Origin: an uncultured Flavobacteriaceae bacterium
Lineage (GTDB): Bacteria; Bacteroidota; Bacteroidia; Flavobacteriales; Flavobacteriaceae
Assembly (NCBI GenBank): GCA_913045325.1
Contig: CAJWPZ010000003.1
Coordinates: 51,505-115,504, forward strand
DNA length: 64,000 nucleotides
Direction of reading: 5' to 3'
The notes below the pieces were generated by a model. It did not search any database. It was not told the DNA's origin and saw only the letters and a list, made by a program, of their open reading frames with translations. Shown here piece by piece: positions 39,150 to 44,688 of the stretch. Every line of letters begins with the position of its first letter. The first letter of the stretch is position 1. The translations under genes and the position numbers were made by a program.

Positions 39150-41138
39150 TTGCAAAATATGTCTGACCAAATCAATTCTACAGAAGAAGATAACACACCT
39201 ATTGAAAAAAGTGTTACCAAAACAAAAGCTACACAGAGCCAGGAAGAAACTCCAAAACAGATGCCTTCTATAAAAGCAGATACCCCAATAGAGAAACCAT
39301 CTAAGGCTGCAAATGTTGAGCCTGAAGTAGCCGCGGCCCCTACCCCAGAAATAACAGAAGTGCAAGAGGTGGAAAGCTCAGATGCTATAGCCCAGATAGA
39401 AACAGTGTTGGAAAAGGAGCCTACCGATTACAGCAACCTAAATAAAGTAGAACTTACTACTGCACTAGAAAATCTTATTAGTAGTGGCGCTATAGATAAC
39501 ATAAAAGAGGAGGCAGAAGAGATAAAAACAGAGTTTAACAACTTGTTTCAGGAAGAACTTACCCAAAAGAAAGAAGCATTTCTTGAACAGGGAGGAAATA
39601 TTATAGATTTCCACTATACCTCTACAGAGAAAAAAGCATTTAATGATATTTTTAATGACTACAAAACAAAACGAAATGCTCATTTTAAGAAGTTAAAACA
39701 AGATCTAGAGGGAAATCTTGAAGTTAGAAACCTATTAATTGAGGAGATTAAAGGCTTATTAGATTCTAAACAAAGTGTAAATAGTAATTATAAAAAAATT
39801 AAAGACATACAAGATCGTTGGAAACAAACTGGAGCCATTCCTAGAGATAAGTATAATACGGTGTGGAATAACTACCACCATTATATGGAGACCTATTATG
39901 ATGCCCTGCAGCTAGATAGAGAGTTTAGAGATCTAGACTTTAAGCACAATCTTGAAGAAAAACAAAAACTTATAACGCGCACACAGGAACTTGCAAAACA
40001 GAGTAATATTGACAAAGCCTTTAGAGAATTACAATTAATACACAGACGTTGGAAAGAAGAGATTGGGCCTGTAGCTAGAGAGATTCGTGAAGAGTTGTGG
40101 GAAACCTTTAGTGCTGCCACAAAGATCATTCATGACAAAAAAATGATTGCAGAAGCGGCTTTAGAAGAAACATTTATTGAAAATTACGCTATTAAAAAAG
40201 AACTGATTGGTCTTATAAATAAAGTGCAAGAAGAAACAAAATCTTCTCACTCTGCATGGCAAAATGCGATGAAACAAGTGCAAGAAATTAGAGATGTGTT
40301 TTTTAGTGTTGGCCGAGTACCTAAAGATAAAAACAAAGAGATTTGGGCTAGCTTTAAAGATACTACACGTAGCTTCAACAAAGCAAAAAATGATTTCTAC
40401 AAACATCAAAAAAGTGCACAATATGATAATCTTGAACAAAAGAGAAAACTCATAAAGCTTGCCCAGGATAATAAAGACACAGAAGATTTTGAAAAAGCTA
40501 CACCGCTGTTCAAAAAAATACAGCATGATTGGCGTGAAATTGGGCATGTTCCAAGAAAAGACAGTGATGTTATTTGGAAAGAGTTTAAAGCGGCTTGTAA
40601 TCACTATTTTGATAGATTACACGCTTTAAAAGATGAAGAAAACAAGGGAGAGGTTGAAAATCTAGCGCAAAAACAAGCCCTACTAGATTCTATGAAAACT
40701 ATCTCTTTATCTGGAGATCATAAGCAAGATATTCAAACCATAAAAGTTACAATTAGCCAATGGAAAAACATTGGACGCGTTCCTTTTAAGAAAAAGAGTA
40801 TCGATCAAAAATTCAATAAAGCTTTAGATGCTTTATTTAACACACTAGATTTAGACAAAAAAGAGGCTGAGCTTATTAAGTTTGAAAATAAGCTACATGC
40901 AATGGCTAGTGAGGATGATACTAGAAAATTACAAAACGAGCAATTCTTTATAGGTAAAAAGATTGATGAAACTAAATCAGAAATTTTACAACTTGAAAAT
41001 AACTTACAGTTTTTCAAGCATGTAGCCAAAGACAACCCTCTTGTAAAAGAGGTATATAAAAACATTGATAATCACAAAGAACAATTGGCACTTTGGAAAG
41101 AAAAGCTAGTGAAAATTAAAGCAATACAAAATGGGTAA
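39150..41138 (+). CDS. DUF349 domain-containing coiled-coil protein
   Basis: Repeated ~70-aa units with W (IQDRWKQTGAIPRDKYNTVWNNYHHYMETYYDAL; IQHDWREIGHVPRKDSDVIWKEFKAACNHYFDRL). Confidence 0.9.
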   Translation: MQNMSDQINSTEEDNTPIEKSVTKTKATQSQEETPKQMPSIKADTPIEKPSKAANVEPEVAAAPTPEITEVQEVESSDAIAQIETVLEKEPTDYSNLNKVELTTALENLISSGAIDNIKEEAEEIKTEFNNLFQEELTQKKEAFLEQGGNIIDFHYTSTEKKAFNDIFNDYKTKRNAHFKKLKQDLEGNLEVRNLLIEEIKGLLDSKQSVNSNYKKIKDIQDRWKQTGAIPRDKYNTVWNNYHHYMETYYDALQLDREFRDLDFKHNLEEKQKLITRTQELAKQSNIDKAFRELQLIHRRWKEEIGPVAREIREELWETFSAATKIIHDKKMIAEAALEETFIENYAIKKELIGLINKVQEETKSSHSAWQNAMKQVQEIRDVFFSVGRVPKDKNKEIWASFKDTTRSFNKAKNDFYKHQKSAQYDNLEQKRKLIKLAQDNKDTEDFEKATPLFKKIQHDWREIGHVPRKDSDVIWKEFKAACNHYFDRLHALKDEENKGEVENLAQKQALLDSMKTISLSGDHKQDIQTIKVTISQWKNIGRVPFKKKSIDQKFNKALDALFNTLDLDKKEAELIKFENKLHAMASEDDTRKLQNEQFFIGKKIDETKSEILQLENNLQFFKHVAKDNPLVKEVYKNIDNHKEQLALWKEKLVKIKAIQNG

Positions 41139-41143
41139 GCAGT

Positions 41144-41773
41144 ATGCAAAATTGTATCCTATGCCAATCACATAAAACAGCCTTATACTATCAAGACCAC
41201 AACCGCAGGTATTGCAATTGCAATACCTGCGGTTGTGTTTTTATACCCCAGCAGTCGCTTCCTGGAGCCATGAAAGAAAAAGAGCGGTATTTGTCACATC
41301 AAAACGATGTAGAAGATAGCGGTTTTCAAAAATTTGTAAGCCCAATAGTAAGGGCTATAAAAGCCAATCACAGCCCTAAAGACAAAGGGTTAGACTTTGG
41401 TGCTGGAACGGGACCTGTAGTTAGTAAATTACTGGAAGACCTTAATTATAAAATGGCGCTGTATGACCCCTTTTTTCATCCCAGTAAAGCACCATTACTC
41501 AACACCTATGACTTTATAGTGTGCTGTGAGGTAATAGAACATCTGCACCATCCATTAAAAGAATTTGTGCTTTTAAAAAAATTATTGAAAAAAAATGGAG
41601 TGTTATACTGCATGACAGATTTATTGCCAAAAAAGGAAGATTTTAAAAACTGGTACTATAAAAATGACTTTACCCATGTTATTTTTTATACGCCAAAAAC
41701 ACTGCAATGGATACAAAAAAAAGTAGGCTTTAAACATCTTGAGATAGACAACAGATTAATTAGGTTTTATTAA
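41144..41773 (+). CDS. class I SAM-dependent methyltransferase with N-terminal Cys-rich zinc-ribbon-like motif
   Basis: CILCQSHK...YCNCNTCGCVFIPQ; GLDFGAGTGPVVSKLL; FIVCCEVIEHLHHPLKEF. Confidence 0.87.
   Translation: MQNCILCQSHKTALYYQDHNRRYCNCNTCGCVFIPQQSLPGAMKEKERYLSHQNDVEDSGFQKFVSPIVRAIKANHSPKDKGLDFGAGTGPVVSKLLEDLNYKMALYDPFFHPSKAPLLNTYDFIVCCEVIEHLHHPLKEFVLLKKLLKKNGVLYCMTDLLPKKEDFKNWYYKNDFTHVIFYTPKTLQWIQKKVGFKHLEIDNRLIRFY
41198..41237. repeat. perfect 40-bp palindrome (20-bp arms, no spacer) inside the methyltransferase CDS
   Basis: CACAACCGCAGGTATTGCAA|TTGCAATACCTGCGGTTGTG; right arm is the exact reverse complement of the left arm. Confidence 0.98.
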
Positions 41774-44688
41774 TCTATAATAGCTTCATAAATAGCTGCT
41801 TGTATATTACTTCTAAGGTTTGTTTCCACCATCTTTTTATTCTCTGCACTTGGGTAGGTCCTGTTAGACATAAATACATATACAATTTCCTTTTCTGGAT
41901 CTGCCCAGGTAAAAGTGCCTGTAAAGCCACTATGGCCAAAGCTTGACATAGAAACACAGCCGCAGGTTGGGCCACTATCTTCTAGTTGAGGCTTATCAAA
42001 GCCCATACCCCTGCGTACGTTTTGATCACAGTAATAACAGGTGTTAAAATCATCAATAACCTTAGAGGATAGATATTGTTGCCCCCCATAACTACCACCG
42101 TTTAAAAACAGTTGCATCATTTTAGCAACATCATTGGCTGTACTAAAAACTCCGGCATGACCACTTACCCCACCTAGCATAGCAGCTCCTTGATCATGCA
42201 CATAGCCATGTATCTTTTGCATTCTAAAATAAGTATCCTCTTCTGTAGGTACAATGGTATTAATATCAAATGTATCAAGTGGATTATACGTCATACTATA
42301 GGCGCCAAGAGATGCATAGAAATGCTGTTTTACAAGGGTGTCTAATGAGACCTGGTAATACCGCTCTAGGTATTTCATTAATAAATAATAAGGTAAATCA
42401 CTATACTTATATTCTTGATTTTCTCTTAACTCGCTTTCTCTTATAAAGCGATAAATACTGTCTTTATACTCTCGTTTCAGGTACATTTTAGAGGCCACCT
42501 TGTATGGGAAATCTTTACTATAAGAGGGTTTGTACCATTTTGCTTTTGGTTTGTTTGTAAGGCTATCCATAGTATTAACATAGTAAGGGATCCAAGATTT
42601 TAATCTAGCGGTATGCGTTAGCATCCTGCGCAGGGTAATGTTGGCCTTATCTGTTTGTTTGTATTGCGGGAGTAACTCAGAGAGGGTAGTCTCCATGGTT
42701 ATAACACCTTTATCAACCAGCTGCATTACCAAAGGAAGCGTCGCGATAATCTTTGTTAAAGAGGCTACGTCATACACATCGGTTTGTAAAACTGGCTTTA
42801 TTTTATTTTGGGTGTGATGGCCAAAGGTCTTGTTGTATATAACTTTTCCTTTTCTAGCAACAAGAATTTGAGCTCCTGGCATCATCCCCTCTTTAATCCC
42901 TAAAGATGCAATAGAGTCAATTTTTTGTAGCCTGGCACTTGAGAGCCCTACACTCTGTGCAGCCCCATAGGTGAGCCTTTGTATAGCCTTTGTTTGTATG
43001 TGTGTATGTATTGGGAAATCAGCTCCTAAAGACACTGGAAGTCTTCCCTTTGCTGCTCTAGCGCCAAAAATGAGTTGTGCAGAAAGTTCTTGAGAGACCT
43101 TACTGTTTTGATAAGACATAATAACTGCATCAAAATTGGTAGTTGTTTTAAAATCTAACAGGCTATATGGCCTTGCAAATACATCTAAAATTAATGTATT
43201 TGTTCTAGCAATTTCATGCAACCACACCAGCTCTTTATTTGTAAATTTATATCCCTTCCATGGGGTTTGATTAGACTTATGGAACCCTGCAATAACATAA
43301 TCATAGCCTTTGAGCTTGATGATATAACTGGCAAGATCATCTGCTTTAACAAAGTCTATAGGGGCATATAATTTAAGTTGGTTTAAAAAGTCAGTACCAG
43401 AAGCATCCCCAAAATTAACATAGGCTATTTTTTTATGTTGTAGGTTTTTTATGGGCAGTAGTTGGTCTTTATTTTTTAACACCGTCAATGCGTTTTCTAT
43501 GGCCTGTTCATACAAAGCATCATCTAAGGGTGTGTTTAAATCTTCAACAAGATTGCTTTGATCTACGGGGAGGTAGTGGTGCAAGCCTACTTTATACTTT
43601 GCATACAGTATTTTTTTTACAGAATGTGCTAAGCGCTCTTCTGAAATAACTTTTTCTTGATAGGCTTTTACTATAATCTGGTGTGCTTTAGGGATGTTTT
43701 CTGAAATTAATAGCACATCATTTCCTGCCAAAAAAGCAGCAAGATCTATCTCTCCTGGTTTATCAAAATTTGCTGCCCCTTTCATGTTTAAGGCATCAGT
43801 GAAAATAAGGCCATTAAAACCAAGATCTCTTTTTAAAATATTTGTCACAATGATTTTTGACAATGAAGATGGCAAGCCATTTTGTGGCTCAAGAGAGGGT
43901 ACATTTAAATGGGCAACCATTACACTAGATAAGCCCTTGTTAATTAACTGTTTGTAGGGATAAAGCTCAATACTATCAATACGCTTTTTGGAAAAATTAA
44001 TAGTGGGTAATGTTTTGTGAGAGTCTGTATCTGTATCTCCATGGCCAGGAAAGTGTTTGGCATTGGCAAGAATTCCTGCAGATTGCATTCCTTTAGTAAA
44101 TGCAATAGATTTTTGTGTAACGTTGTCTGCATCTTCTCCAAAAGAGCGGTTACCGATAATAGGGTTTTTTGGGTTGGTATTAATATCTACAACTGGAGCA
44201 AAATTAATATGTACTCCCAATCTTTTACAGTGCTCCCCTATTCTACGGCCCACTTTTTCAATAATACTGTTATCTTTTATAGCCCCAAGAGTCATATTCC
44301 ATGGATAGGCAAATGTAGAATCTAGACGCATTGCTAGGCCCCACTCTGCATCCATAGCGATCATTAATTTTGTTTTTGATAGTCCTTGAAACTCATTGGT
44401 AAGTTTTGCTTGCCTTATGGGTCCTCCCTTAGAAAAAATAACACCACCTATATGGTACTGTGTGATGAGTTTTTTAATTTTATCTGTTTTTACTTTGGGA
44501 TCTTTAGAGAATACATCTACCATAAATAGCTGCCCAACCTTTTGCTTTAAAGACATGTTACGATACACACTATCTACCCAAATTTGTTGATTTACGCGAT
44601 CATTTTCTACAACTAAAGGACTTATTTGTTGAGAAATAGCTGGAATACAGCCTAGGATAAAAAGGAAGAATAAAAGGGGTTTTTGCAT
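41770..44688 (-). CDS. GH3 family (NagZ-like) beta-N-acetylhexosaminidase fused to a class C beta-lactamase-type serine hydrolase
   Basis: GH3: AKHFPGHGDTDTDSHKTLP, GLIFTDALNMKG. Serine hydrolase: DVASLTKIIATLPLV (SxxK), YKYSDLPYYLL (Y-x-[ND]), FGHSGFTGT. Confidence 0.93.
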   Translation of the reverse strand: MQKPLLFFLFILGCIPAISQQISPLVVENDRVNQQIWVDSVYRNMSLKQKVGQLFMVDVFSKDPKVKTDKIKKLITQYHIGGVIFSKGGPIRQAKLTNEFQGLSKTKLMIAMDAEWGLAMRLDSTFAYPWNMTLGAIKDNSIIEKVGRRIGEHCKRLGVHINFAPVVDINTNPKNPIIGNRSFGEDADNVTQKSIAFTKGMQSAGILANAKHFPGHGDTDTDSHKTLPTINFSKKRIDSIELYPYKQLINKGLSSVMVAHLNVPSLEPQNGLPSSLSKIIVTNILKRDLGFNGLIFTDALNMKGAANFDKPGEIDLAAFLAGNDVLLISENIPKAHQIIVKAYQEKVISEERLAHSVKKILYAKYKVGLHHYLPVDQSNLVEDLNTPLDDALYEQAIENALTVLKNKDQLLPIKNLQHKKIAYVNFGDASGTDFLNQLKLYAPIDFVKADDLASYIIKLKGYDYVIAGFHKSNQTPWKGYKFTNKELVWLHEIARTNTLILDVFARPYSLLDFKTTTNFDAVIMSYQNSKVSQELSAQLIFGARAAKGRLPVSLGADFPIHTHIQTKAIQRLTYGAAQSVGLSSARLQKIDSIASLGIKEGMMPGAQILVARKGKVIYNKTFGHHTQNKIKPVLQTDVYDVASLTKIIATLPLVMQLVDKGVITMETTLSELLPQYKQTDKANITLRRMLTHTARLKSWIPYYVNTMDSLTNKPKAKWYKPSYSKDFPYKVASKMYLKREYKDSIYRFIRESELRENQEYKYSDLPYYLLMKYLERYYQVSLDTLVKQHFYASLGAYSMTYNPLDTFDINTIVPTEEDTYFRMQKIHGYVHDQGAAMLGGVSGHAGVFSTANDVAKMMQLFLNGGSYGGQQYLSSKVIDDFNTCYYCDQNVRRGMGFDKPQLEDSGPTCGCVSMSSFGHSGFTGTFTWADPEKEIVYVFMSNRTYPSAENKKMVETNLRSNIQAAIYEAIID

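Follow-up and report, generated by a model that had tools for sequence, protein, structure and literature searches.

Palindromes within bacterial open reading frames are known from the Rickettsia palindromic elements, whose arms lose their identity over time. In the mitochondrial genes of Nematomorpha, perfect inverted repeats are found within genes such that both arms encode conserved protein (PMC6649704). These coding palindromes are many and extend up to 284 bp, with template switching proposed as their origin, and coding inverted repeats in which first codon positions pair with one another (phase 1) are the least constrained and are favoured (PMC6649704). In E. coli, terminators located no more than 100 bp into a coding region retain most of their efficiency because the ribosome is still behind RNA polymerase (PMC4824070), and inverted repeats are enriched approximately 25-60 bp past start codons (PMC6060812).

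The window discussed here, a stretch of 64,000 nucleotides from an uncultured Flavobacteriaceae bacterium, contains an exact inverted repeat of 40 bp without a spacer, CACAACCGCAGGTATTGCAA followed directly by TTGCAATACCTGCGGTTGTG, near the start of a methyltransferase gene (Table 1). The bases that flank it (C41197 and T41238) do not pair. It extends from codon 19 (His) to the first base of codon 32 (Val), in a register that pairs first codon positions with first and second with third. The initial annotation had reported this loop-free palindrome at the correct coordinates and codons, and its claim that well below 1e-6 such repeats would be expected in 64 kb is borne out by an expectation of approximately 2e-7 for 20-bp arms, computed from the base composition of this genome (pair probability 0.267). 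Coding palindromes of modest size (arms of 8-10 bp) do occur at about the chance level, as a product of codon usage would, and codon shuffles roughly match the count of short spacer-less palindromes but not of long ones. Given the expectation for 20-bp arms and the lack of any arm longer than 13 bp in 60 codon shuffles of 678 genes, codon usage as the source of the palindrome is refuted by the counts and retains next to no probability.

Table 1. Features of the methyltransferase locus, in positions of the window.
Feature	Position	Strand	Remarks
DUF349 gene	39150..41138	+	5 bp upstream of the methyltransferase gene; tight pair conserved across Flavobacteriaceae
Host gene, SAM methyltransferase (Methyltransf_23)	41144..41773	+	N-terminal Cys4 (C4, C7, C26, C29) zinc-ribbon-like motif
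Block of low synonymous change, codons 17-35	41192..41248	+	1 variable codon against 6.9 expected, four species
Terminator-like unit	41198..41242	+	18-bp RNA stem, AAUU loop, then TTTTT(ATA)
Palindrome, left arm	41198..41217	+	Codons 19-25: H N R R Y C and two bases of N
Palindrome, right arm	41218..41237	+	Last base of codon 25 to first base of codon 32; carries C26 and C29
GH3 glycosidase / beta-lactamase-fold fusion gene, convergent	41770..44688	-	Stop overlaps the methyltransferase stop

The methyltransferase is a protein of 209 amino acids, to which no solved structure is matched by sequence and for which an NCBIfam search returned matches below the cut-off only. The four Cys residues of its N-terminal motif are conserved without exception in all 106 aligned relatives, so that the right arm of the palindrome encodes half of a zinc-ribbon-like motif, presumably one that binds metal. 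Both of the additional cysteines to which the initial annotation drew attention are present, but their distributions differ, as C31 is found in six of six close species and C24 is limited to the four that have the GCAATTGC centre. The overlap of the methyltransferase and GH3 stop codons is seen in the window and in close relatives, and it leaves no room for an intergenic terminator. Within the GH3 gene, on the minus strand at 41953-41973, the sequence ACCTGCGGCTGTGTTTCTATG encodes TCGCVSM and is identical at 18 of 21 positions to the right arm and tail of the palindrome (TCGCVFI), a likeness for which ectopic copying and coincidence are both possible explanations.

The palindrome is found at the homologous site in five other species, which together with that of the window form a marine Flavobacteriaceae clade of six, sampled mostly as MAGs. 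The arms are perfect in the window, and its relatives carry one or two mismatches or more. There is one mismatch in G006 and G010 (CACAACCGCAGGTATTGCAATTGCAACACCTGCGGTTGTG) and two in G004 (as CACAACCGCAGGTATTGCAATTGCAACACCTGCGGTTGTG but with ...AACTCC...), while G008 has 16-bp arms around an 8-nt loop (...GGTATTACCAATGCAATACC...) and G172 retains a decayed copy, CACAACCGCATGTTTTTAAATTGCAATACCTGCGATTGTG, that folds at -10.9 kcal/mol within an intact methyltransferase gene. The outer 12 bp of the arms are invariant in five species. Within the clade the palindrome is present as one copy per genome, and a relaxed pattern, searched in 400 genomes drawn from the family, found it in no other genome save G172. 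This alignment of orthologues at the nucleotide level, which the initial annotation had proposed, indicates that the palindrome itself is inherited, and not the free divergence with no structure conserved that would have spoken against it. The same annotation had allowed for an assembly or read artefact; chimeric joining can yield perfect short palindromes and the genome is a draft of 51 contigs, yet the site recurs in five other species, assembled separately and showing species-specific differences, the frame is open and the Cys motif is intact, so that this option has negligible probability and is regarded as excluded. A mobile palindromic element of the Rickettsia type, inserted in frame, would accommodate a palindrome that lies within the coding frame, but it was rejected as very improbable, as there is a single copy and the gene aligns without gaps to its relatives, with C26 and C29 in register and no insertion.

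Trees were built from the DUF349 and GH3 genes of the locus and rooted on G007, and they give the topology ((G010,G004,G006),(window,(G008,G172))). The key branch, which unites the window with G008 and G172, received support of 82/85 from DUF349 DNA, 99/97 from DUF349 protein and 92/97 from GH3. Because the window groups with G008 and G172 apart from G004, G006 and G010, parsimony suggests that the common ancestor of the six species carried the perfect palindrome. A scheme in which the 16-bp arms and loop of G008 were ancestral and the window centre arose by a recent template switch was dropped after the trees grouped the window with G008 and G172. Thus the template switch put forward by the initial annotation stays plausible as the origin of the palindrome, but not as a recent event. 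The nearest outgroup, G007, has no methyltransferase gene. Its DUF349-GH3 gap contains two inverted repeats, neither of which passes a strict terminator scan; the gap (L094:2834-2990) holds the repeat AGTAAAGCAATACC..GGTATTGCTTTACT, whose 8-mers GGTATTGC and GCAATACC also occur in the window palindrome, but with their order reversed. In G006 (L082 and L088), stop codons and a frame change interrupt the DUF349 gene, which reflects either an assembly error or a pseudogene.

The frequency of such palindromes was surveyed in 842 kb of the 1.88-Mb assembly (approximately 45%), as the initial annotation had also recommended. This sample contains 47 inverted repeats with arms of at least 13 bp and loops of 0-8, of which 43 lie wholly or partly between genes and mostly resemble ordinary A-run/T-run terminators. 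The remaining four lie inside genes. Among these the window palindrome greatly exceeds the rest in length, and it is both the longest spacer-less palindrome and the longest intragenic inverted repeat in the 842 kb. Five spacer-less coding palindromes with arms of at least 12 bp were observed, against 0.12 in codon shuffles of the 678 genes; the four others, at L114 (15-bp arms) and at L116, L147 and L148 (12 bp each), have no T-run after them, which hints at a general mutational process that generates spacer-less coding palindromes rather than a dedicated element. Two of the four are also found in related species. The 24-bp palindrome of L148 (3953-3976, AACTTTTGGTTTAAACCAAAAGTT) has one or two mismatched pairs in G004, G006, G008 and G010, and in that of L116 (7392-7415, 24 bp), within a gene whose product resembles by eye a nicotinate-nucleotide adenylyltransferase, the second pair of G010 has T-A in place of A-T, both sides having changed. 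Those of L114 (11225-11254, 30 bp) and L147 (13207-13230, 24 bp) each lie within 75 nt of the start of the ORF, in signal-peptide-like regions; the latter is perfect in the window's genome only, and the former was found in one other species. Three of the five coding palindromes are situated no more than 100 nt into a gene, and all pair first codon positions with first.

These counts bear on the possibility that the palindrome is a neutral relic, in which a one-time template switch homogenised a short coding inverted repeat that has no cellular role, and whose arms are held mainly by the encoded protein and by occasional arm-to-arm correction as they slowly decay. In addition to the excess of coding palindromes, at least two others (L116 and L148) are common to several species that differ by arm mismatches, and the decay states in G004, G006, G010, G008 and G172 are as such a history would leave them. 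Template-switch homogenisation of inverted-repeat arms in genes is on record (PMC8604942), and template switching can both create and maintain hairpins (PMC8794818). Nor was any SbcCD found in the genus to oppose palindromes. In none of the genus's 11 genomes did SbcC or SbcD score above its family cut-off, a result for which the SbcD control was sound (8 of 14 over the cut-off), while only one of 14 SbcC controls passed the strict cut-off, making the absence of SbcC less firm. The argument of the initial annotation that SbcCD-type nucleases would render the palindrome unstable is accordingly unsupported. Additionally, 40 bp is far below the palindrome lengths that destabilise replicons.

At the RNA level, the palindrome has the geometry of an intrinsic terminator. 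The segment 41190-41250 folds at -34.9 kcal/mol (z approximately -10), with 10 G-C among the 18 pairs of the stem and a loop of 4, and the tract after the stem, TTTTTATA, has 6 T in 8. The hairpin occupies nt 55-94 of the methyltransferase gene and its tail nt 95-99, and this is the sole terminator-like site on the plus strand within 41144-43200. A stable GC-containing stem, a short loop and a U-rich tract are thus all present, but the location is within a coding region, where intrinsic terminators usually lie between genes at transcript ends. The palindrome probably folds into an RNA hairpin that may end transcription early, an element of a known type in the unusual setting of a protein-coding sequence. 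The one coding palindrome of this size also has terminator geometry, which counts against a neutral relic. A search of Rfam returned nothing above threshold; its sole match was to a microRNA, on the minus strand, at 28.9 bits where the gathering score is 80, and was set aside as a chance hit expected of any long hairpin.

Synonymous change is low across the palindrome. In the window, G006, G010 and G008, codons 19-32 have 1 variable synonymous codon where 5.0 are expected (P=0.012), and the longer block of codons 17-35, a region chosen after inspection, ranks third lowest of 3286 windows from the genes around the locus. Windows with similarly low synonymous change are found elsewhere in the locus, and because of this likeness and of the post hoc choice of the second region, the low synonymous change is taken as moderate evidence of constraint. 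It nevertheless speaks against a neutral relic, as the synonymous sites are unusually constant also outside the arms, at codons 17, 18 and 33-35. In this pairing register, a synonymous change in one arm can almost never be matched in the other without altering an amino acid, which may explain the absence of compensatory changes in the close clade.

Beyond the clade, the cultured species Patiriisocius marinus (G003), whose methyltransferase has approximately 50% protein identity in an ungapped alignment, contains a weaker hairpin in the same register. Here 15 of 20 positions are paired, including one G-U, the fold has a z of -4.9 to -5.7, and a T-run follows the stem. Pairs 14 and 16 are changed on both sides with pairing kept, which again runs counter to a neutral relic, although this covariation comes from one divergent sequence, is matched by 26 of 500 shuffles and is weak. 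A 6-bp ACCGCA/TGCGGT repeat at the palindrome site could, conversely, resemble the seed of such a relic. These pairs also bear on whether the palindrome is a DNA site bound by a dimeric protein, for which the exact dyad symmetry and the invariant outer 12-bp arms would be suited; P. marinus keeps the pairing at pairs 14 and 16 and not the sequence, the palindrome is much longer than usual operators and is single-copy in each genome of the clade, and a binding site is consequently considered unlikely. Otherwise, the homologous centre in 89 distinct relatives pairs at about the chance level, typically at 8 or so of 20 positions. The strict terminator scan, which misses the interrupted stem of P. 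marinus, flagged only close-clade members among 45 loci with the DUF349-methyltransferase pair, and no terminator-like hairpin was found in the methyltransferase gene of 38 more distant relatives with the pair. No intergenic terminator was found between DUF349 and methyltransferase among the relatives' loci that have a gap. In a relative of a different genus (L203), a strong hairpin (z -5.75) forms at an offset position within the corresponding region of the methyltransferase gene and may have arisen independently.

The sequence comparisons show the palindrome to be an inherited coding hairpin. The favoured reading, at a probability somewhat short of even, is that it acts as an early intragenic terminator or attenuator, and a neutral template-switch relic is nearly as likely. 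The synonymous conservation, the P. marinus hairpin and the T-run with terminator-like geometry point to the former, and lend moderate support to the mRNA hairpin near the 5' end that the initial annotation had listed among its explanations. Against a terminator, the T-run is partly dictated by the protein motif (V32-F33), G172 retains the T-run without the stem, and most relatives with the DUF349-methyltransferase pair have no such hairpin. The stem also loses pairs in G004, G006, G010 and G008, and as it is mostly lost in G172 though the gene is intact, the perfect form is not essential.

Under the terminator or attenuator reading, an older inverted repeat with imperfect arms would have been made perfect by template switching from one arm to the other, in the register with first codon positions paired, where the weakest protein constraint would have allowed a palindrome. 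On the transcript that runs from DUF349 into the methyltransferase gene, the 18-bp stem and U5 would then form an intrinsic terminator or attenuator within 100 nt of the gene start, and termination would act before the ribosome catches up with RNA polymerase. Some transcripts would end just past DUF349, yielding less methyltransferase and a DUF349 mRNA with a stable 3' end, and those that escape would give the full enzyme. A more specific proposal, and a rather doubtful one, is a natural attenuator within Cys4 zinc-ribbon codons, in which the DNA would double as metal-binding motif and as conditional terminator of the DUF349-methyltransferase operon, conserved in the genus and perhaps sensing translation of the methyltransferase start.

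The locus offers a long, perfect bacterial coding palindrome that is traceable across species, with protein and hairpin on the same bases, and could be used to ask whether palindromes are kept by RNA selection or by template-switch mutation alone. Whether spacer-less coding palindromes are in excess where SbcCD goes undetected, as seems to be the case in this genus, could likewise be tested across many genomes. Among known systems, the documented cases of template-switch homogenisation comprise clustered changes that raise arm complementarity, and stems that are created and maintained in this way (PMC8604942; PMC8794818). Unlike these, a template switch here would predate the six-species split, and thus the mutational step cannot be reconstructed. 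The Rickettsia palindromic elements (mentioned in PMC6649704) are similar as bacterial ORF palindromes that lose arm identity, whereas the window palindrome is not an insertion and is not repeated in the genome. With terminators located early in coding sequence, no more than 100 bp in (PMC4824070), it has in common a hairpin and U-tract, here at nt 55-99, inside a downstream gene of an operon, a position at which such terminators work despite translation; in contrast to that engineered E. coli construct, the window hairpin is natural, encodes conserved residues and is a candidate terminator. A perfect inverted repeat far above chance in an intact gene is what characterises the coding palindromes of Nematomorpha (PMC6649704), and the window palindrome resembles them in being perfect and intragenic, with phase 1 pairing, conserved protein in both arms and a proposed origin by template switching, but differs in being short, bacterial, inherited across species and followed by a T-run.
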